Below are positions 4,204-16,944 of a stretch of DNA of 38,935 nucleotides, piece after piece. The stretch is from Nitrospirota bacterium. GTDB lineage: Bacteria > Nitrospirota > Leptospirillia > Leptospirillales > Leptospirillaceae. The translations under genes and the position numbers were made by a program. The number at the start of each line of letters is the position of its first letter. Position 1 is the first letter of the stretch. Under the pieces are notes generated by a model. That model saw nothing but the letters and a program-made list of their open reading frames with translations, did no database searches and was not told the origin of the DNA. Location of the stretch: assembly GCA_021827365.1 (NCBI GenBank), contig JAKAWK010000005.1:1-38935 (forward strand). Direction: 5' to 3'.

Positions 4204-4977
4204 TTGGGTGCAGAAGACTTCATGCCCCATCTTTTCAGAAAACAATTTCTCCTGAAATCGGACATATTTTCCGAATACCTCCTCAAGGTCCTGGCTTTTG
4301 AACGAATTCCGCTGGTCTTCCTCTTCGACAGCCACGTGCGGCTCATCTATTCCTCGATGGTCATCGAAGCCGACCGGCGGGAAAATCTCCTTCTCCTTGA
4401 CGCCCTCCACCCCGAGATGGGAAATGATCATCTGGTCTCGGGAAGTTCCGTCACATTTGCCGGGAAGGCCAAGGGGGTGGAGACCGGCTTCCGGGCCAGG
4501 ATCCGGGGGGGAACCACGGTAGCGGGACAACCGGCGGTCAGTCTTTTTTTTCCCCATGAAACCTACCATGCCCAGAGACGACAGGCGCTTCGGGTTCCGC
4601 TTTCCCCGACCACCCCTCCGGTGCGCCTCACGACACCTCACGGAGGACAGGAGTTTGTCAGGCCTGTGAATGTGGGGAGCGGCGGAATGCGGGTGCTCTT
4701 TCCCGAAAAAAACGAGAAGGGGGAACCCAACGACCTGTTCCGGGAAGGGGAGACGGTCCTTATCGAGAGCGCTGATCTGGGAGGTTTCCGTCTGCCGCCT
4801 CTTTCCGGGCGAATCATCTACCTCGAACATTCGGGCCGAGAGACGGGCACCGATCTCATGGCGATGGGAATTCTCTTCCTCGACTTTCCGAAGGAGTGCG
4901 AGGAGCCCCTCATCGACTTTGTCGCCCGGAAGGACCGGGAGAATCTGAAAAACCTCCGGAACGATCCCCGGGGATGA
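4204..4977 (+). CDS. PilZ-domain protein (YcgR-like)
   Basis: 257 aa; TTG start at 4204 or ATG at 4222. RRQALRV (RxxxR) followed by NVGSGGMRV, typical PilZ layout. Confidence 0.7.
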   Translation: MGAEDFMPHLFRKQFLLKSDIFSEYLLKVLAFERIPLVFLFDSHVRLIYSSMVIEADRRENLLLLDALHPEMGNDHLVSGSSVTFAGKAKGVETGFRARIRGGTTVAGQPAVSLFFPHETYHAQRRQALRVPLSPTTPPVRLTTPHGGQEFVRPVNVGSGGMRVLFPEKNEKGEPNDLFREGETVLIESADLGGFRLPPLSGRIIYLEHSGRETGTDLMAMGILFLDFPKECEEPLIDFVARKDRENLKNLRNDPRG

Positions 4978-4995
4978 CCGGAGTCTCTTTACGAG

Positions 4996-5024
4996 TCGCA
5001 ACCGGCGATTCCGTGGACTATAAT
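4996..5024 (+). promoter_or_regulatory. Candidate sigma70-type promoter for the 5075-10848 gene set
   Basis: Consensus -10 TATAAT at 5019-5024, weak -35 TCGCAA at 4996-5001, 17 nt spacer, about 50 nt upstream of the ATG at 5075. Confidence 0.45.
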
Positions 5025-5074: not shown

Positions 5075-6052
5075 ATGGCCTCAAAAAAGGGCGTCGCCCT
5101 TGTCAAGACCAAGACGTTAAACGAAGGAAAGAACGGCCCTTCGCTCTTCCTGACGCTGACCTTCCGCGGAGACCGGAAGGAGGATCCTCCCGTTGACTAT
5201 CCGGCCCGTCTCTGGGAAAACGCGGGGGCGGTCGATCCGGCGATCAAGGTGGGAAGCCTGGTCATGGCCGAGGGCCAGCTTGTCCTTTACAATAACGAGC
5301 AGCAGATCCGTCTCTCCCGGATCGAACCCCTCAAGGCCTCGGAGGAGGAGATCGCCGCCTTCATCCCGAAAAGCCGGGTCGAAGCCTCCTCGGGCATGGC
5401 CCGTCTTCGGGAGTTTATGGACTCCCTGGCCGATCCCCAGCTGCGCGCCTTTGGTCTTGAAATCCTTGCGGACCCGGAGGTGGCCCAGCTTTTCCCCCGG
5501 GCCCCGGCGGCCAAGCGGAATCATCATGCCATGGTGGGCGGGCTTCTCGAACACACCCTCGAGATCATGGCGATGGGTGACGCTGTCGCTCCGATCCTTT
5601 CCCTTAACAGGGACCTGCTTCTTCTTGGCCTTTTTCTCCACGATATTGGAAAATGCTGGGAAATTTCACCATCCGCCGGGTTTTCCTACACCGATGAAGG
5701 GCGTCTGGTCGGTCACATGGCCCTGGGAGTCGAAAAATGCACCCAGGTCGCCCGCCGGCTCCCCGAATTTCCCGAACGTTATCTTCGCCTCCTTCACCAT
5801 TTCATCCTGGCCCATCACGGGGAACTCGAATACGGCTCGCCTCTCCTGCCTGCCACTCCGGAGGCCATGGCCGTCCACATGCTCGACAATCTCTCGGGGC
5901 AGGTCTTCGCCATGCGCCAAGTCTCCGCCGGTCCTGATGGATGGGGATACGAAAAGAACCGGGGGGCTTTCATCTACAAGGAAGGCTCCGACCTTTCTCG
6001 ACTTGACCATACCCCCCTGGGGAAGGGGATCCGTAAGGTTTTCGGTCCGTGA
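5075..6052 (+). CDS. HD-domain 3'-5' exoribonuclease, YhaM-like, with N-terminal OB-fold-like region
   Basis: 325 aa; SLFLTLTFRG...KVGSLVMAEGQLVLYNNEQQIRLSRIEPL, then HHAMVGGLLEHTLEIM...LLLGLFLHDIGKCWEIS...GHMALG...LLHHFILAHHGELEYGSPLLPATPEAMAVHMLDNLSG. Confidence 0.85.
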   Translation: MASKKGVALVKTKTLNEGKNGPSLFLTLTFRGDRKEDPPVDYPARLWENAGAVDPAIKVGSLVMAEGQLVLYNNEQQIRLSRIEPLKASEEEIAAFIPKSRVEASSGMARLREFMDSLADPQLRAFGLEILADPEVAQLFPRAPAAKRNHHAMVGGLLEHTLEIMAMGDAVAPILSLNRDLLLLGLFLHDIGKCWEISPSAGFSYTDEGRLVGHMALGVEKCTQVARRLPEFPERYLRLLHHFILAHHGELEYGSPLLPATPEAMAVHMLDNLSGQVFAMRQVSAGPDGWGYEKNRGAFIYKEGSDLSRLDHTPLGKGIRKVFGP

Positions 6053-8868
6053 GCCCTCCCAAAGTCTCTTCCGCCTTTCTCTCCGACCTCCGCTCTCTTC
6101 TGGGGTCTGACCGTGTCCTGGCAGACGAGTCGCACAGGAAAGCCTATTCCTACGATGCGGGGATCCACAGAATCTGGCCGGCGGCGGTGGTCCTTCCGGA
6201 AACGGCCGAAGAGCTCTCGAAGATCGTGGCCTTCTCCCGGCGGACGGGGGTTCCCCTGACGCCTCGTTCGGCGGGGACCAACCTGACCGGAGCGGCGATC
6301 GGCCCGGGGATCGTGGTCGGAATGACCCGTATGAACCGGATCGATCTCTCCTGCCTGGAGGAGGGTGTGGTCCGCGTCGGTCCGGGGGTCATTCTCAAGG
6401 AGCTTTCCGACCGTCTGGCACGCCTGGGACATTTCTTTCCCCCCGACCCCTCCTCGGCCCAGGCCTGCCAGATCGGGGGGATGATCGGAACGAATGCCGC
6501 CGGGGCCCATGCCCTCAAGTACGGAGCCATGAAGGACAATGTCCGGGCCCTCTCCTTTCTGGATGACAGGGGGAATCTTCATCCTCTCGCCACCGTCTCC
6601 TACGGATCCTGGGAGGAGCTTCCGAACCGGGTTCCCGTCCGGGGATTCCAGGACCTCCTTCGCCGTCTCCCCGCCTGGAGCCCTCTTCTGATTTCCCGGA
6701 TGCCCCACGTCTCCAAGAACTCCTCCGGATACAATCTCTTCGATCTGGCGGTGGCCTTCGAGAGAGGCAGAAGCCACCCGGAGACAGGGGTCTTCGATCC
6801 GGTACGCCTTGTCGTGGGATCGGAGGGGACGCTGGGCTTCGTGACGGAGGCGACCCTCGGGGTTTTGCCTCTTCCGAAGCGGCGGGTGACTCTCCTTGCC
6901 TACTTCCTGAGCCTGGGCGACCTCGGGGCGGCGGTGAGTGAGCTCCTGGATCTCTCTCCCTCGGCCCTCGAAATGATGGACCGGGCCACACTGGATCTGA
7001 TCGGACGCTCCCGGTTCGGAATTCCGGAGGAGGCGGACTCCCTTCTACTGGTCGAATTCGATTCGGAGCCCCAGGAGGACTTGATCTCCGCCTCCCGGAC
7101 TCTTCTTGCCCGCTATCCCTCTCCCGCCCCTCTTCAGGTGGCCGTGGATCCGGAGCACCAGAAGATTCTCTGGAAGGCCCGCCATTCCCTCTTTCCCACC
7201 CTTTACCGCTATGACGGAATCCGCCGGCCCATCAACTTTGCCGACGATGTGGCCGTTCCTGTCAGGCGCCTTCCGGAGCTTTTGGCCTTTCTGCGGGATT
7301 TCTTCCGGGAGGAGAGGATTCCGGTGGCGGTCTACGGCCATATCGGAAACGGAAACGCGCACATCAATCCCCTGATGAATGTCCGGGAGGAAGGAACCCC
7401 CGAGCGCCTCCTCCATATCAGTCAGACCATCCATCGCGAGGCGATTGCGCGCTTTCAGGGGGTCCCCTGCGGAGAGCACGGGGAGGGGAGGGTCCGGGCT
7501 GAGTTTTTGCCGATGGTTTACGGGGAGGAGATCTACGGAATGTTCCGGGAGGTCAAGCATGCCTTCGATCCGGAGGGAATCCTGAACCCGGGGGTCAAGA
7601 TCTCGACGGCTTCCTTTCTCGACGATCTCGATCTCGAACGTGTGGCCCGGCCCTGCGCCACCTGCGGAAAATGCAATACCGTCTGTCCCCCCTTCGATGT
7701 CCTTCGGGAGGAGACCTCCGGTGCCCGGGGCTGGTACCAGATCCTGTCCGATCCCTCTCTGGGACCGCCCCCGGACAGTCTCCTCGATGCCTGCCTGAAC
7801 TGCAAGTCCTGCCGCGCCACCTGTCCGGCAGGCGTGGACGTCTCCCGGGTCATTCTCGACGCCCGGGCGAAGAGGGGTGGAGATCCTGTCTCCCGCCGCC
7901 TCTTCCGGGCCCTCATCGACGGTCGGCTCGACCGGCTGGTTCCTCTTCTCGGCCAGACCCAGGGGCTCTGGGACCGCCTCTTCTTCCGGAGCCTTCTCGA
8001 AGGACTCTCCCGGAGGCTTCTCAAAAGGGTGGCTCCGACCGCCTTCATCCCCCGGACGCTTCGGCTTCCCGTCATCCGGAAGAAGACGCTTCGGGAGAGA
8101 TTTTTCTCCCTCACCTCCGAAGGGGGGCGGACCGGGGACCTGGCCTACTTCCACGGCTGCGCCGCCCGGTATTTTGACGACGGAATCGGGGAGGCTGTCA
8201 TTGCCCTTCTCATGCGATCACCCCGAACCCTGGTCCTTCCTCCCCAGACCTGCTCGGGGACCCCTATTGAAACCTACGGCCATGCCGACCTGGTTCGGGA
8301 GGCGGCCCGGAAAAACCTCGACACCCTTTCCGGCTATCCGGTCATCGTGACCGGATGCGCCTCCTGCACGCTGGCCCTCAAAGACATGCCGGAGCTCTTT
8401 GCCGAGGGATCATCCGAACGGGAGAAGGCCCTGATCCTCTCCTCCCGGGTCCGCCACATCTCCGAGTACATGTTGTCGGAGGAGATGGAGCCGGTTCTTT
8501 CTGAAATCTCCGAAAAAACACGGACGCATCCCCTGGCCGAAGGGATCACCTATCATGAATCCTGCCATCTCCGGGCGGCGGGGGTGACCGAAGCCCCCCA
8601 TCGTCTGATCCGGCAGATCTTTGGTCGGGATTTCCATACCATGGCCGACGAGGACCGCTGTGCTGGAGGAGCCGGATCCTATCTTGTCAAGAATCCGGAA
8701 CTTTCCGGACGCATCTTTGAACGAAAGCGGGCGGCGGTTGCCTCCTCCGGGGCCAGAACGGTGACCACCGGGTGCCCTGCCTGCCAGATGAAGCTTCAGG
8801 ACGGGCTCGGAGCGGAGGCCGACGTGGCCCATATGGCCATTCTTATGGCCCGGGCTCTCGATCACTGA
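6049..8868 (+). CDS. FAD-binding oxidoreductase fused to 4Fe-4S and two CCG domains (D-lactate/glycolate dehydrogenase-like)
   Basis: 939 aa, GTG start overlapping the previous stop. VVLPETAEELSKIVAFSRRTGVPLTPRSAGTNLTGAAIG (FAD_binding_4); CATCGKCNTVCPPFD and CLNCKSCRATCPAGVD (4Fe-4S); YHESCHLR and TTGCPACQMKL (CCG domain). Confidence 0.88.
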   Translation: MSPPKVSSAFLSDLRSLLGSDRVLADESHRKAYSYDAGIHRIWPAAVVLPETAEELSKIVAFSRRTGVPLTPRSAGTNLTGAAIGPGIVVGMTRMNRIDLSCLEEGVVRVGPGVILKELSDRLARLGHFFPPDPSSAQACQIGGMIGTNAAGAHALKYGAMKDNVRALSFLDDRGNLHPLATVSYGSWEELPNRVPVRGFQDLLRRLPAWSPLLISRMPHVSKNSSGYNLFDLAVAFERGRSHPETGVFDPVRLVVGSEGTLGFVTEATLGVLPLPKRRVTLLAYFLSLGDLGAAVSELLDLSPSALEMMDRATLDLIGRSRFGIPEEADSLLLVEFDSEPQEDLISASRTLLARYPSPAPLQVAVDPEHQKILWKARHSLFPTLYRYDGIRRPINFADDVAVPVRRLPELLAFLRDFFREERIPVAVYGHIGNGNAHINPLMNVREEGTPERLLHISQTIHREAIARFQGVPCGEHGEGRVRAEFLPMVYGEEIYGMFREVKHAFDPEGILNPGVKISTASFLDDLDLERVARPCATCGKCNTVCPPFDVLREETSGARGWYQILSDPSLGPPPDSLLDACLNCKSCRATCPAGVDVSRVILDARAKRGGDPVSRRLFRALIDGRLDRLVPLLGQTQGLWDRLFFRSLLEGLSRRLLKRVAPTAFIPRTLRLPVIRKKTLRERFFSLTSEGGRTGDLAYFHGCAARYFDDGIGEAVIALLMRSPRTLVLPPQTCSGTPIETYGHADLVREAARKNLDTLSGYPVIVTGCASCTLALKDMPELFAEGSSEREKALILSSRVRHISEYMLSEEMEPVLSEISEKTRTHPLAEGITYHESCHLRAAGVTEAPHRLIRQIFGRDFHTMADEDRCAGGAGSYLVKNPELSGRIFERKRAAVASSGARTVTTGCPACQMKLQDGLGAEADVAHMAILMARALDH

Positions 8869-8889
8869 CATTTTTTCGAAAGGACGGTC

Positions 8890-9249
8890 ATGGCAAAGAG
8901 GTTGCGCTTCGAATGGCAGTATCCGGCGGATTTCCAGCATCATCCGGTCTCGGGGATCTACGGGGGTGTTCTTCCCTCCGGGGATTTGGTCATGGAGTTC
9001 TTTCTCGAACGGATGCCCCCGCCGGAATACGAGGTCCGGGAAATTTCCCCCGAGCTTCCGACGGGAAAACCGGTGGAGTTTGCCGAGCAAAAGGTTGTCC
9101 GCCTCGTCCAGTGCGGCATGGTGGCCAATCTCCAGACCGCCCGCTCCTTTCACGAATGGCTAGGTCACACCCTCCGGCAGATTGACGAGGCCCGGGCCGG
9201 TAGCACCCCGCGCGACGAGAAGAAGGGAGGGCCGGGCGGATACCTCTGA
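8890..9249 (+). CDS. Conserved-looking small protein of unknown function
   Basis: 119 aa ORF, 21 nt after the oxidoreductase and 36 nt before the helicase. MAKRLRFEWQYPADFQHHPVSGIYGGVLPSGDLVMEFFLER... Family not recognised with confidence. Confidence 0.7.
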   Translation: MAKRLRFEWQYPADFQHHPVSGIYGGVLPSGDLVMEFFLERMPPPEYEVREISPELPTGKPVEFAEQKVVRLVQCGMVANLQTARSFHEWLGHTLRQIDEARAGSTPRDEKKGGPGGYL

Positions 9250-9285
9250 TCTCCCGAGTCCGGGGGGAGGGGGATTTCGCGCATC

Positions 9286-10848
9286 ATGGGAAAGAAAGGA
9301 AGGCGTTCTGACTCCAGGGAGAGGCAGGAACACAAGAAATCTCTCTCGGAACTCCGGGAGCGGGAGATTTCAGCGGTCCGGCGCATCCTTCCCCTTCTGG
9401 CCAAGGACCTGTGGCCTGGTGCCAGACGGATCCAGAAGAGTTGGACCGCCTGGCTGGGACCCACCAATTCGGGCAAGACCCACGAGGCCCTGGGGCGACT
9501 GAGAAAAAGGGGGGGGAGCTATCTGGCCCCTCTCCGCCTTTTGGCCCAGGAGGTCCATGAACGCTTCGAGTCGGACGGGATCCCGACCAGCCTCCACACC
9601 GGGGAGGAGCGGATCCATCGGGAGGAGTCGGTTCATGTCTCGGCCACGGTCGAGATGGGGTCGACCACCCGCGAAGACGGATGCGTGGTGATCGACGAGA
9701 TCCAGATGCTCTCGGACCGGGAGCGGGGCCATGCCTGGGTCCGGGCCCTCCTGGGCTCGCCTGTTGAGGAGGTGCTCCTGTGTGGAGCCCCGCACTCCGA
9801 AGGGGCGATCCGTCGTCTGGCAGACTATGCGGGGGTGCCGATCGAGATCCATCGCACTGTCCGGAAGACCCCCCTGACCCTTTCGCCGGAACCCATCCCT
9901 TTGGGACAGGTTCCGGACGGGAGCATCGTGGTCGCCTTCAGCCGGATGGATGTGCTCGACCTGGCCCGCCTTTTTCGCGACCGGGGGCGTCCGGTCGCCA
10001 CGATCTACGGAGCCATGCCGCCCGAACTCAGACGGGCGGAATCGAAACGCTTCCGTTCGGGGGAGGCCACGGTCATGCTGGCCACCGATGCCGTGGGAAT
10101 GGGTCTCAACATCCCGGCGGAATATGTGATCTTTTCCACCGCCACCAAGTTCGACGGGCGGGAGGACCGCATGCTGACTCCGGACGAGGTCCTCCAGATC
10201 GGGGGCAGGGCCGGCCGGTTCGGTCTCCACCGGGAGGGGATCGTGGCCGGAATGGACCGCAGGACTCACGCCATCGTCCGGCGGCAGTTCGACGGCCTGC
10301 CGGAATCTCTTTCCGGTCCCTTTCCCTTCATGCCGGACTTTCCCATCGTTTTGTCCGCGGCCTCGGTCCTCGCTTCGGAAAATCTCGAGACAATCTTATC
10401 CCGCCTCCACGCCTCGATCCTGACGGACGCTCACCTCCGGTCGGGAATCGGGCCCGAGGTCCGCCAGCGTGCGGCGAAGATCGAGCAGGCCTGTCCGGGG
10501 CTTCCCCTCGCCGAGCGGTGGCTCCTTCTTTTTGCTCCCGTCAACCGCACTACGGAGTTCGACTTCTGGCGATGGGTGGCAACGATCGGGAGAACCGGAC
10601 GACCGGAAGGGGTACCGGTGGTGCGATGTCCCCCTGTGCGGGAGATCTATGGCCGAAAAGAAGGAGAGGAGACTCTGGCCCGTCTCTCCCTGTACCGATG
10701 GCTCTCCCTTCGGATTCCCCACCGGTTTCCGGAGTATGATGTCTCCCTGGGACGCTATCTCCGGGTTCTTGAGGAAACCCGTGTCATTCTCGAGCGGGAG
10801 GGGAGGGTCCGTCGCCGGAGGAAGCACGGGGATCGGATCGCAGAATAG
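9286..10848 (+). CDS. SUV3-type ATP-dependent RNA helicase
   Basis: 520 aa; AWLGPTNSGKTHEAL (motif I), TGEERI, ATVEM, VVIDEIQMLSDRERGHAWVRALLG (motif II DEIQ), LLCGAPHSEGAI, IVVAFSRMDVLDL, VMLATDAVGMGLN, QIGGRAGRFG (motif VI). Confidence 0.9.
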   Translation: MGKKGRRSDSRERQEHKKSLSELREREISAVRRILPLLAKDLWPGARRIQKSWTAWLGPTNSGKTHEALGRLRKRGGSYLAPLRLLAQEVHERFESDGIPTSLHTGEERIHREESVHVSATVEMGSTTREDGCVVIDEIQMLSDRERGHAWVRALLGSPVEEVLLCGAPHSEGAIRRLADYAGVPIEIHRTVRKTPLTLSPEPIPLGQVPDGSIVVAFSRMDVLDLARLFRDRGRPVATIYGAMPPELRRAESKRFRSGEATVMLATDAVGMGLNIPAEYVIFSTATKFDGREDRMLTPDEVLQIGGRAGRFGLHREGIVAGMDRRTHAIVRRQFDGLPESLSGPFPFMPDFPIVLSAASVLASENLETILSRLHASILTDAHLRSGIGPEVRQRAAKIEQACPGLPLAERWLLLFAPVNRTTEFDFWRWVATIGRTGRPEGVPVVRCPPVREIYGRKEGEETLARLSLYRWLSLRIPHRFPEYDVSLGRYLRVLEETRVILEREGRVRRRRKHGDRIAE

Positions 10849-10902: not shown

Positions 10903-11520
10903 TCAGGTCCTCTTTTTGTAGCGGCCCAGGTGAAAGGGGAGACCTCCAAGAGTTTCTCTCCAGGATTCTTCCTCCAGAAAAATGCGTTGAACGGAGAGAT
11001 CGGTGGTGCGGTCCAGGTGGCAACCGGCGGCCAGGTGCTTCCAGAGGGGGGTCGCCAGTCTCTGGACGGCCGCCAGCGGGGGAGAGTCGGAGAGGACATG
11101 TTCCATGAGGAAAAGGGTTCCCTCCGATTTTAGCGTCCGGCTAATCTCTCCAAGACTTGCCGGGAGGTCGTCGACGGAGCAGAGGACGAGGGTGACGACG
11201 ATGCTGTCGAATGATTCATCCGGAAAGGGAAGGGCGGTCGCCGATCCCACGACGGGATAGCCCGTTCTGGACAGACCTTTCCCCAGCCCCTTCTTCAGCA
11301 TGAAGGGGGAGCGGTCGAGAAAGACCGTCCGCGTGTCGGGGAGATCCAGAAATGGAAGGTTGCTCCCCGTTCCGGCCCCGATGTCGAGAACCCTTCCCCG
11401 GACCCCGGAGAGGAGGCGTGACCGGAGGGGAGAAAGGGTCTCCTTTTCGGTGCGGGCCAGAAGCGGATCGTAGACGGCGGCAAAAAGACGTTCATACCAC
11501 CCCGCCTGTGAATGTTTCAT
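10903..11520 (-). CDS. Class I SAM-dependent methyltransferase (UbiE/phospholipid methyltransferase-like)
   Basis: 205 aa; GRVLDIGAGTGSNLPFL (SAM motif I), ALPFPDESFDSIVVTLVLCSVDDLPASLGEISRTLKSEGTLFLMEH. Confidence 0.85.
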   Translation of the reverse strand: MKHSQAGWYERLFAAVYDPLLARTEKETLSPLRSRLLSGVRGRVLDIGAGTGSNLPFLDLPDTRTVFLDRSPFMLKKGLGKGLSRTGYPVVGSATALPFPDESFDSIVVTLVLCSVDDLPASLGEISRTLKSEGTLFLMEHVLSDSPPLAAVQRLATPLWKHLAAGCHLDRTTDLSVQRIFLEEESWRETLGGLPFHLGRYKKRT

Positions 11521-11610: not shown

Positions 11611-12180
11611 ATGGCCCCTCAAAATCGATCCCCCCGTTCCCTATTGTCTGCCCTGTTTTTGGCCGGATGCCTTTTCCTTCTTGCTCCCGGTAAATCCACC
11701 GCAGCTGTTCTTCCGCTCAGCCTCTCGGTTCAGGGGATCGGAATCGGCGTGCTGTCCGGTCAGTCGACCCTTACGAACAGCGTCGGGGGATATACCGGAG
11801 GGGGATTCGGAGCGGGATTTTTAGGGACCCTCCATCTTTTTGACAACCTGGCCCTCCGGGGACAGGCGAATTACCTTCACTTCACAGGAAACCCCCTCAT
11901 GACGGCCTTTCCCGTGACCCTGGGTCTCGAGTACGACTTTTTGCACTTTACCGACCTGATCTACTTTTACGGGGCTCTTGACGCCGGCTACAACAACACC
12001 CAGGCCGAAGGGACAGGAGGGAACAACTTTACCTGGGACGCCGCCCTGGGGCTCAACCTTGGGCCGGTCTATGCCGAAATACGGTACGCCCAGATTGCCG
12101 GACCCCTGGTGACGACAAGCCAGGGAAGCCTGGGAAGTCTGTCCTATGTGCCGGTCGTGGTCGGTTTCACCTTTTTCTGA
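11611..12180 (+). CDS. Small outer-membrane beta-barrel protein
   Basis: 189 aa; N-terminal signal peptide (LLSALFLAGCLFLLAPGKSTAA), alternating hydrophobic strands, C-terminus SYVPVVVGFTFF ending in Phe. Confidence 0.65.
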   Translation: MAPQNRSPRSLLSALFLAGCLFLLAPGKSTAAVLPLSLSVQGIGIGVLSGQSTLTNSVGGYTGGGFGAGFLGTLHLFDNLALRGQANYLHFTGNPLMTAFPVTLGLEYDFLHFTDLIYFYGALDAGYNNTQAEGTGGNNFTWDAALGLNLGPVYAEIRYAQIAGPLVTTSQGSLGSLSYVPVVVGFTFF

Positions 12181-12348: not shown

Positions 12349-12424
12349 TGGTGCCGAGGGGCGGAATCGAACCGCCGACACGAGGCTTTTCAGGCCTCTG
12401 CTCTACCGACTGAGCTACCTCGGC
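12349..12424 (-). tRNA. tRNA-Phe (anticodon GAA), 3' CCA encoded
   Basis: Minus strand GCCGAGGTAGCTCAGTCGGTAGAGCAGAGGCCTGAAAAGCCTCGTGTCGGCGGTTCGATTCCGCCCCTCGGCACCA; full cloverleaf, anticodon loop CTGAAAA. Confidence 0.97.
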
Positions 12425-12753: not shown

Positions 12754-15174
12754 ATGACACGGACCGGTTCATTGTCTGAATCTGACTCCGGCCAGAAAGC
12801 CACCCGGACAGGGAGGACCGCTGTCTTCCCACCTTTTCCGGCCTTTCTCGCGCTCTTTCTCCCGCTGCTTCTGGGCCTGTGTCTTTTTTTTCCCCATGCT
12901 TCCGGAGCGGCCGGAGCCTCTGAGCAAAATCTTGCCCCCGTCCAGATTACACGCATCGATATCGAGGGAAACCGGAAGATCGATACCGGAACCATCCGTC
13001 AGAAGATCCACAACAAGGTGGGTGACCCCTTTTCCCAATCGGCCATCTCCTCCGACCTCAAGTCCCTTTACCAGACCGGATACTTTGACCAGATCCGGGT
13101 CTACGCCCGGGGTTTCGAGGGAGGCGTGGCCCTGACCTTCGTCGTGACGGAGCGTCCGACCGTCGAAAAAATCAGCTTTGTCGGAAACAACAACCAGTCC
13201 GACGCGGACCTTCGTAAAAAGCTGACCATCCTTCCGGCCTCCTTCTACGACGGGTACGAGGTTCACCAGAACGTTCGCCGGATAGAAGAACTTTACCGGA
13301 AATCGGGCTACTACAACGCCTCCGTGGTTCCTGTCACCAGACGGATTTCGAACCGGAAGGTCGAGCTGATTTTCCTTATTTCCGAGGGGACCGTCACCCA
13401 CATCACCAAGGTGAGCTTTTCCGGAAACAAAGCTTATCCCGCCTCTGTGCTCCAGAAAAAGATCAAGACCAAACCCTACAACTGGCTGACCTCCTGGTGG
13501 ACCGATTCAGGAATCTACAAGAAAAGCCAGACCGATGAGGACATCCAGCGCCTCCGGGACTTCTATCTGAACCATGGCTACATCAACATCGCCGTGGGAG
13601 AGCCCAAGCGGATCTTCCACAATCACCGGAAGAGTATGGAAATCAAGTTTCCGCTCACGGAGGGGGACCAGTTCCGGATCGATCATGTGGGGGTCTCGGG
13701 AAATACCCTGTTCAGCAAGAAGAAGGTTCTGGAGGTCGTCAAGACAAAGTCCGGCGAGGTCTTCTCAAGGAAGCGCCTCCAGAAGGACATCAACAACTTG
13801 ACGAGAAAGTACGGGCACAAGGGGTATGCCTTTGCCATCGTCACGCCCCAGATCGTTCCCAACATCCGGAGGAAGACTGTCAATCTGACATTTCTGATCA
13901 CCGAGGGAGGATTGGTCCATATCCGGAAGATCAACATCGCCGGAAACGAACTGACGGGCGACAAGGTCATCCGGCGGGTCCTGGGGGTCCAGGAAGCGGG
14001 CATCATGGATACCCAGGCCCTCCAGGATTCCTACCGGAACCTCAACAACCTCAACTTCTTCAAGAATGTCCAGATCGTTCCGCAGCAGGTAGGGGACAAT
14101 CTGGTTGATCTGAACGTCAAGGTCAAGGAAAAACCGACCGGAACCTTCTCAATCGGAGGCGGTTACAGCACGCTCTTCGGGGTTATGGGTATGGCGACCA
14201 TTGCCCAGAACAACGTCTTCGGGACCGGAGACTCCGTCAGTCTCTCCGGCGAGCTGGGAGGCTTCATCACCATGTACTCCCTTACAATCACCGATCCCTA
14301 TTTCCTGGATACCCCCACGGCCGCCACCCTGTCCTTCTTTGACACCTTCATGGACTATTTCACTTACTGGAACAGCGCCCTGGGCGGTTCGTTGAGTCTG
14401 ACCCGCCGGTTCGGGTATTATTTTTCCACCTCCATCTCCTGGCTGGTGGAGACCGAACAGATCTTTCTCGTGGCGGTCACGCCCCAGCAGGCCCAGGAGG
14501 CGCCGGTTCTGGCGCCGTTCCTGCAACAGATAGGATACTGGACCCAGAGCGGTCCCTCCATCGGATTTTCCTACGACCGGCGGGACAACTACATGCTTCC
14601 CCACAGGGGCTATCACGTCTGGGGCAACATCGGAGTTTACGGAGGAACCTTCGGAGGAGACACGTCCTTCTATCAGGCGACGGGGAATGCGACGGTCTTT
14701 TTCCCCATCACCGAGAAATCGACTCTCTCTTTCCACTTTGCAGTGGGCTACGAGAACCCCTTGGGGCCGGACGGCTTCATTCCAGTCTGGGACCGGTTTT
14801 ATGTCGGCGGAATCTATTCGAACCGGGGATACAATTTCGGATTTGCCGGCCCCATGCCCTTCGGCTATCTGGTCGGCGGCGACAAGGAGCTGATCTTCAA
14901 CGCCGATTATGTCTTCCCCATCTTTGCCAAGTACGGGTTTTACGGAGATATCTTTTTCGACAATTCGGGGGAATATCTGCCGGGCCAGCCCCTGTCCCTC
15001 TCCGGCTTCAACTGGCCTGGAACCGGCATGGGCATCATGTGGAACTCCCCCATGGGCCCCCTGACCCTCGATCTTGGCTGGCCGCTGGCCAACAACGCCT
15101 ATATCAAGGGCTTCCCCGGCAACTATCCGGGGCCTGTGGTCAATTTCGAGATGGGATCCCTTTATGGCGGGTGA
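12754..15174 (+). CDS. bamA: Outer membrane protein assembly factor BamA (Omp85: POTRA repeats + barrel)
   Basis: 806 aa; signal peptide, repeated POTRA patterns (ITRIDIEGNRKIDTGTIRQKI; EKISFVGNNNQSDADLRKKL; ITKVSFSGNKAYPASVLQKKI; IDHVGVSGNTLFSKKKVLEVV; IRKINIAGNELTGDKVIRRVL), C-terminal barrel. Followed by skp, lpxD, fabZ and lpxA. Confidence 0.95.
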   Translation: MTRTGSLSESDSGQKATRTGRTAVFPPFPAFLALFLPLLLGLCLFFPHASGAAGASEQNLAPVQITRIDIEGNRKIDTGTIRQKIHNKVGDPFSQSAISSDLKSLYQTGYFDQIRVYARGFEGGVALTFVVTERPTVEKISFVGNNNQSDADLRKKLTILPASFYDGYEVHQNVRRIEELYRKSGYYNASVVPVTRRISNRKVELIFLISEGTVTHITKVSFSGNKAYPASVLQKKIKTKPYNWLTSWWTDSGIYKKSQTDEDIQRLRDFYLNHGYINIAVGEPKRIFHNHRKSMEIKFPLTEGDQFRIDHVGVSGNTLFSKKKVLEVVKTKSGEVFSRKRLQKDINNLTRKYGHKGYAFAIVTPQIVPNIRRKTVNLTFLITEGGLVHIRKINIAGNELTGDKVIRRVLGVQEAGIMDTQALQDSYRNLNNLNFFKNVQIVPQQVGDNLVDLNVKVKEKPTGTFSIGGGYSTLFGVMGMATIAQNNVFGTGDSVSLSGELGGFITMYSLTITDPYFLDTPTAATLSFFDTFMDYFTYWNSALGGSLSLTRRFGYYFSTSISWLVETEQIFLVAVTPQQAQEAPVLAPFLQQIGYWTQSGPSIGFSYDRRDNYMLPHRGYHVWGNIGVYGGTFGGDTSFYQATGNATVFFPITEKSTLSFHFAVGYENPLGPDGFIPVWDRFYVGGIYSNRGYNFGFAGPMPFGYLVGGDKELIFNADYVFPIFAKYGFYGDIFFDNSGEYLPGQPLSLSGFNWPGTGMGIMWNSPMGPLTLDLGWPLANNAYIKGFPGNYPGPVVNFEMGSLYGG

Positions 15175-15246
15175 CAACGGTCCCCGACAATCGGGGGAGC
15201 GGGCCAATGGATCCGCTCTCCTCTCTCACCAAGCAAAGGAGACTTG

Positions 15247-15819
15247 ATGACACGCATGCGACAGTCCGCCGCGGCAATTCTTGCGGCCGGGATCCTTCTT
15301 ATCACAGTGTCACCGGCCATGGCCGACAGCAAGGTGGGGACGGTCGACATCCAGCAGGTCTTCCAGAAGACGAAGCTCGGGAAGGCCATTCAGTCTCACC
15401 TCAAGAATTTTGCCGACCGTCGCATCTCCAAGATGCGGACGGAGCAGAAGGCCCTCCAGGACGAGCAGGGACAGATCCGGCAGCAGGTGGGGGTGATCAG
15501 CAAGGATGCCCTCCGTGCCAAGGAGATGGAGTTCCAGAAGAAGGTCCAGGATTTTCAGAAGCGCCAACAGAAGGTCCAGACCGAAATCGCCTCCGAGAGT
15601 TTTGTGGAGTTCCGGAAGTTTCTCGATGCGGTGAATGCTGCCACCGGAAGCCTGGGAAAGAAGTACGGGTTCACTGTGATCCTGTCCCAGCACCCCCTGC
15701 GCGTTCCCCTGGGACCCTATCCGCCTCCCTTTCAGTCCCCCCGTTACCTCTATATCAATCCTGATGCCGACATCACCCAGTCGGTCATCAAGTACGTCAA
15801 CGAGCATGCGAACCAGTAA
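15247..15819 (+). CDS. skp: OmpH/Skp family periplasmic chaperone
   Basis: Signal peptide plus VGTVDIQQVFQKTKLGKAIQSHLKNFADRRISKMRTEQKALQDEQGQIRQQ; coiled-coil composition; between bamA and lpxD. Confidence 0.88.
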   Translation: MTRMRQSAAAILAAGILLITVSPAMADSKVGTVDIQQVFQKTKLGKAIQSHLKNFADRRISKMRTEQKALQDEQGQIRQQVGVISKDALRAKEMEFQKKVQDFQKRQQKVQTEIASESFVEFRKFLDAVNAATGSLGKKYGFTVILSQHPLRVPLGPYPPPFQSPRYLYINPDADITQSVIKYVNEHANQ

Positions 15820-15825
15820 GGCTCC

Positions 15826-16944
15826 ATGCGCTCCGTCCTGAGGGCGGACTCCGGAAGAACAAAAGGAGCTTCCTTGATCACACTCTCGCAGATCGCCGAT
15901 CAGGTAGGCGGGGTTCTGGTAGGTTCCGACGGCAAGGAAGAGATCCGCTCCATCCGCCCCATGAACGAGGCAGGTCCGCAAGACCTGACCTTTCTTGCCA
16001 ATCCCAAGTACCGGAAGGCGGTTCCGGCCCTCAGGGCCGGAGCCATCCTGGTGCCGGAGATCCTTCCCGAAGCCCAAATCCCCCAGATCGTGGTTCCTTC
16101 CCCTTACCTGGCGATGGCGCTCCTGCTACAGCATTTCTTTCCCCTGCCGACCCCTTCCCGGGGCATCTCCCCCCAGGCGGCCGTCGACCCTTCCGCCCGT
16201 ATCGCCCAGGATGTGGAAATACGCCCGGGATGCGTGGTCGAATCTGGAGCCGAGATCGGATCCGGGACGATCCTCTTTGCCGGGTGCGTGGTCGGGGCCG
16301 GGGCCAGGATCGGGGAACACTGCATTCTCCACCCGAGGGTTTCGGTCCTTGACCGGGTGCGGATTGGGAATCGGGTCATCGTCCAGAGCGGTACCGTCAT
16401 CGGCTCCGATGGCTTCGGCTATGCCGAAGGGCCGGAGGGACAGCGTCTCAGAATCCCGCAGACGGGAACCGTGGTCCTTGAGGATGACGTGGAGATCGGA
16501 GCCAACGTGACCATTGATCGGGCCACCTTTGGCGAAACGGTTATCGGACGCGGAACCAAGATCGATAACCTTGTCCAGATCGCCCACAATGTCCGGACAG
16601 GACGGGACTGCGTCATCGTCGCCCAGGCCGGCATCTCCGGGTCGACGCGGCTTGGTGACCGGGTCATTCTGGCGGGGCAGGTGGGGGTCGTAGGCCACAT
16701 CGAAATCGGATCGGAGTCAATGGTCGGAGCCCAGTCGGGTGTCGCCCAGACCCTGCCGGCGGGATCCCGGGTTTCGGGGAGCCCGGCCCTCTCCCACCCG
16801 CTCTGGCTCAGGATCCAGGGGACCCTCAAGAATCTTCCGGCTCTTGCCCGGCGTCTTTCAGCCCTCGAAAAAGCCGTCTTTGGACGGGACACCTCGCGCG
16901 AACCCTCAACCGACTCCGAAGGGGAGACCCATGGGACCCATTGA
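15826..16944 (+). CDS. lpxD: UDP-3-O-(3-hydroxyacyl)glucosamine N-acyltransferase LpxD
   Basis: 372 aa; N-terminal LpxD domain (DLTFLANPKYRKAVPALRAGAILV) and left-handed beta-helix hexapeptides (GSDGFGYAEGPEGQRLRIPQTGTVVLEDDVEIGANVTIDRATFGETVIGRGTKIDNLVQIAHNV). Confidence 0.96.
   Translation: MRSVLRADSGRTKGASLITLSQIADQVGGVLVGSDGKEEIRSIRPMNEAGPQDLTFLANPKYRKAVPALRAGAILVPEILPEAQIPQIVVPSPYLAMALLLQHFFPLPTPSRGISPQAAVDPSARIAQDVEIRPGCVVESGAEIGSGTILFAGCVVGAGARIGEHCILHPRVSVLDRVRIGNRVIVQSGTVIGSDGFGYAEGPEGQRLRIPQTGTVVLEDDVEIGANVTIDRATFGETVIGRGTKIDNLVQIAHNVRTGRDCVIVAQAGISGSTRLGDRVILAGQVGVVGHIEIGSESMVGAQSGVAQTLPAGSRVSGSPALSHPLWLRIQGTLKNLPALARRLSALEKAVFGRDTSREPSTDSEGETHGTH

Follow-up and report, generated by a model that had tools for sequence, protein, structure and literature searches.

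The window, a stretch of 38,935 nucleotides from a member of the Nitrospirota, contains a locus that can probably be explained as a housekeeping operon lengthened at its 3' end, a SUV3-type RNA helicase gene having been appended to an older operon for a YhaM-type exoribonuclease and an oxidoreductase. According to the ORF listing the locus (5075-10848, forward strand) is composed of four co-directional ORFs, with an overlap of 4 bp between the first two followed by gaps of 21 nt and 36 nt. A preliminary description of this DNA had given the same layout, and its coordinates and strand were confirmed. The gene identities proposed there agreed with matches in Pfam, NCBIfam and PDB, the 119-aa protein (p119) being without a family. 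The features of the region are as follows.

4204..4977, forward: YcgR/PilZ-like protein (PF07317, 5.9e-10), upstream flank, outside the proposed operon
4995..5000, forward: possible -35 element GTCGCA (GTCGAT in the sister clade), 18 nt before the -10 element
5019..5024, forward: -10 element TATAAT, invariant in 11/11 genus loci, 55-62 nt upstream of yhaM
5075..6052, forward: yhaM, YhaM-type 3'-5' exoribonuclease, 325 aa; HD domain, weak OB-fold match
6049..8868, forward: fused GlcD/GlcF-type FAD/Fe-S oxidoreductase, 939 aa, D-2-hydroxyacid dehydrogenase-like; FAD_binding_4, FAD-oxidase_C, Fer4 and CCG domains; GTG start, overlapping the end of yhaM by 4 bp
8890..9249, forward: p119, genus-restricted 119-aa orphan matching no family, 21 nt after the oxidoreductase gene
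9286..10848, forward: short SUV3-type RNA helicase, 520 aa, 36 nt after p119; DEXQc_Suv3 and Helicase_C
10903..11520, reverse: convergent SAM methyltransferase (PF08241, 4.7e-16), 3' boundary of the operon

The YcgR/PilZ-like gene lies upstream of yhaM in most of the genus, and the methyltransferase gene occupies the same position in the genus loci. Elsewhere in the window we observed a long open frame of 954 aa that runs off the edge (1-2862, reverse), a tRNA-Phe (gaa) gene (12349-12424, reverse) and ORFs resembling by eye BamA, an OmpH/Skp-like protein and LpxD (12754-16944, forward). The BamA-like gene and a small ORF (11611-12180) are found downstream of the operon in several members of the genus.

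About two TATAAT hexamers per strand are expected by chance in the window, so a single one means little. The TATAAT at 5019, taken for a -10 element in the preliminary description, is nevertheless real and is supported as such by a footprint: the hexamer is present in all 11 genus loci, whereas at 6 loci from other genera of the family the 110 nt preceding yhaM do not contain it. GTCG is likewise conserved approximately 18-19 nt upstream of TATAAT in 11/11 genus loci compared, GTCGCA being a weak match to TTGACA. Because the -35 element is weak, a consensus scan for sigma-70-type sites returned no full site at this promoter. A predicted promoter upstream of yhaM is thus supported by the sequence footprint.

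The distribution of the genes was followed in a phylum sample of 118 genomes, 14 from the genus of the window and 104 others. Within this sample SUV3 is restricted to the window's genus, where it was found in 10 of the 14 genomes; among the remaining genomes there was none, the weak matches being partial and resembling generic helicases. YhaM is far more widespread in the same sample. Of the 11 genus genomes that show the complete stretch, 10 have the genes in the order YhaM–oxidoreductase–p119–SUV3, and four other genera of the family (g2-g5) carry YhaM and oxidoreductase genes as an adjacent pair that is accompanied by neither helicase nor p119. None of the four genes was found in G074 and G092, which are 66-71% complete.

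The exception in gene order is G028 (95% complete). It retains YhaM, oxidoreductase and p119, and p119 directly meets the convergent methyltransferase gene; SUV3 was not found anywhere in this genome. While absences in metagenome-assembled genomes (MAGs) can otherwise be assembly gaps, the sequence of the G028 locus runs unbroken through the helicase site. G028 groups with the clade of the window in trees based on YhaM and oxidoreductase (bootstrap 82), on PNPase and RNB (81) and on all four proteins (93). Since G028 falls inside this clade, loss of the helicase in G028 appears favoured over a late gain elsewhere. In the PNPase and RNB tree G086 and G089 (PNPase loci L162 and L159, RNB loci L181 and L178) stood on a long branch, which may mean that the bins of these two MAGs are mixed.

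Purifying selection acts on each of the four genes, dN/dS being not above approximately 0.2 for any of them. Estimated by NG86, in which dS is saturated in the more distant pairs, the values against relatives were 0.05-0.10 for YhaM, 0.11-0.20 for the oxidoreductase, 0.08-0.16 for SUV3 and 0.02-0.07 for p119, the most constrained of the four. The linkage has been retained although the helicases of the genus have diverged to approximately 73% identity and synonymous changes are nearly saturated. Such long-kept linkage exceeds what a chance neighbourhood would give, and a functional coupling is conceivable. Co-directional genes in conserved order (10/11 genomes) share a promoter whose footprint is present at all 11 loci. 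Because promoter and order are conserved and purifying selection maintains every one of the genes, a genus-wide operon of four genes is likely, and the genes are likely to be co-transcribed and co-expressed. The gap between p119 and SUV3 (9247-9285) contains a G-rich inverted repeat, CTCCC...GGGAG, that is not followed by a T-run; GC hairpins also look possible in the corresponding gaps of other genus members, whose sequences align poorly.

p119 was present in 12 of the 14 genus genomes, one copy being partial because the G082 contig ends inside it, and was absent from the 104 sampled genomes outside the genus; a profile search of the other genera of the family was also negative. None of 11 homologues had a Pfam match at E<=10. 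Searches gave no significant match in PHROGs (best E 0.18) or PDB and none in PADLOC or viral contigs, and an AlphaFold model built from close homologues was unusable (mean pLDDT 47). It had been suggested that p119 might take part in a helicase-exonuclease unit. In G028 p119 persists in the absence of the helicase and is therefore not tied to it.

The product of yhaM combines a Pfam HD domain (1.6e-10) with a best NCBIfam match to NF010007 YhaM (3.9e-40). Because its score of 137.8 bits is below the curated equivalog cut-off of 460 bits, we regard it as YhaM-type and not as a strict equivalog. Its best match in PDB was YhaM 9h3f (E 1.7e-35, residues 9-280). The metal-binding residues of the HD domain are preserved, H150, H151, H160, H189, D190, H214, H247, H248 and D271 being invariant in 12 homologues. 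In these catalytic residues and in overall length it resembles YhaM / CBF1, the 3'-5' exoribonuclease of Firmicutes, but it differs in the low equivalog score. A reading of the locus as a defence system was rejected; PADLOC matches to YhaM and the helicase were generic HD/helicase hits of partial coverage, with E 2e-10 at best.

The helicase matched PF22527 with 155 bits (cut-off 27) and contains the motifs GPTNSGKT, DEIQ and QIGGRAGR. In an alignment of 10 genus homologues GPTNSGKT and DEIQ were invariant or nearly so, as expected of the DEXQc_Suv3 RecA1 domain. The best PDB match was mitochondrial Suv3 (6f4a, 2.4e-56), with residues 42-484 aligned to residues 150-618 of 6f4a, so that the alignment includes the C-terminal region up to residue 484. 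Core motifs, DEXQc_Suv3 domain and the helix before motif I are common to both proteins. The window helicase is, however, shorter (520 aa). It lacks the N-terminal domain of eukaryotic Suv3, only about 40 residues preceding the core, and its C-terminal domains PF18147 and PF12513 reach 18.2 and 16.9 bits against Pfam cut-offs of 22.5 and 27. The nuclease linked to it is HD-type, and not RNB or PNPase as for mitochondrial Suv3. An AlphaFold model from 10-11 close homologues was too poor to be used (mean pLDDT 46).

Other bacterial SUV3-type helicases (Alcaligenes, Noviherbaspirillum, Microvirga, Azospirillum and others) are 37-42% identical over the core, but their frames are mostly longer (about 590-1100 codons compared to 520), only three being of similar length. 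The closest relatives outside the phylum are proteobacterial (approximately 38-41% identity), and in the helicase tree the group of the window, which has a long branch, falls with weak support among proteobacterial sequences. The gene does not stand out as foreign in GC or GC3. Since SUV3 was found in no other part of the phylum sample, the simplest reading is that the helicase was probably acquired horizontally.

In the preliminary description helicase and exonuclease had been interpreted as a degradosome-like unit. SUV3 would unwind RNA and hand the 3' end to YhaM, comparable to Suv3-Dss1 of yeast mitochondria, as a speciality of this genus; we consider this very unlikely. In mtEXO the contact is made by a Suv3 helix located before motif I, which docks on an HTH domain of the RNB-family nuclease Dss1 (PMC5758563). 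According to residue numbers printed in the alignment, LWPGARRIQK appears to be the equivalent in the window helicase, which speaks for a YhaM-SUV3 unit, as does the gene order conserved in the genus behind a single conserved promoter. However, the docking helix has been described as highly conserved across Suv3 proteins generally (PMC5758563), and a helicase-docking HTH as in Dss1 was not found in the YhaM-type protein, for which HD and, weakly, OB are the sole Pfam matches. Moreover, we compared 40 further SUV3 loci from Proteobacteria, Chloroflexota, Bacillota, Actinomycetota and Bdellovibrionota, with flanks of up to 10 kb. The linkage of SUV3 and YhaM in related genomes, named there as a check on the proposed unit, held within one genus (10/11), but a clear YhaM was near SUV3 at none of these 40 loci. 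A weak HD match near SUV3 of a Coriobacteriaceae member (L121) was rejected as a generic HD/HDOD protein. Most SUV3 genomes are devoid of YhaM: among 21 outside the phylum, 15 had no match at 1e-5, one had a weak HD match only, and in the 5 with a clear YhaM the gene was elsewhere in the genome. Helicase and nuclease are thus not conserved together as would be expected of an mtEXO-like system, because their linkage is confined to one genus, G028 and four genera have YhaM but no SUV3, and SUV3 occurs without YhaM in 15/21 genomes. The likeness to DEAD-box degradosomes (RhlB, CshA) lies in the concept of a nuclease with a helicase, the candidate pair here being read from genes, and the helicase belongs to another family (PMC5818665).

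The partner of the helicase might instead be PNPase or RNase R encoded elsewhere, the adjacency to yhaM being incidental. PNPase (human) and RNB-family Dss1 (yeast) are the documented partners of SUV3, and PNPase was found in 21/21 and an RNB protein in 20/21 genomes of the family. We nevertheless regard this partnership as doubtful. Genes for PNPase and for an RNase R of RNB type are present in the host genome, but both are unlinked to the helicase, and the RNase R has OB, CSD2, RNB and S1 matches but no HTH match. A role unrelated to any exonuclease, for instance in ribosome or RNA remodelling or on DNA/RNA hybrids, within a neutral neighbourhood, is a tentative possibility. Clustering of neighbours at the 40 SUV3 loci revealed no family broadly shared across lineages except SUV3 itself, and SUV3 of rice has been reported to work on DNA as well as on RNA (PMC4207899). 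The long retention of the linkage in the genus argues against mere neutrality. Both of these explanations are sub-cases compatible with an appended helicase, and the confidences overlap; the YhaM-SUV3 unit is the true competitor. An obligate YhaM-SUV3 machine is unlikely, because YhaM shows no such docking domain in Pfam and both PNPase and RNase R are encoded in the same genome. A machine for RNA degradation of the mitochondrial type may exist here but finds no support in the comparative evidence.

We therefore return to the lengthened operon. A predicted sigma-70-like promoter at approximately 4995-5024 would drive yhaM and the overlapping oxidoreductase gene, the family-wide pair, and in this genus p119 and a compact SUV3-type helicase would have been added to the operon, with horizontal transfer as the most likely origin of the helicase. 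To judge from related proteins, YhaM would act alone, as it does in Firmicutes, trimming or degrading RNA from its 3' end, while the helicase would unwind structured RNA and probably aid general RNA turnover without a fixed pairing with YhaM. As far as the gene contents of these genomes indicate, the helicase is a dispensable addition to an older exoribonuclease–oxidoreductase pair.

We know of no description of an RNA-decay pair composed of SUV3 and YhaM. That a compact, horizontally acquired SUV3 was recruited in one genus to work with YhaM as a bacterial helicase-exonuclease pair for RNA decay is hardly probable; if true, bacteria would have their own equivalent of the mitochondrial Suv3 degradosome, in which the nuclease is an unrelated one. 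As found, the locus presents a conserved operon that ends in the gene for a compact bacterial SUV3, and a naturally helicase-free relative provides a built-in comparison.
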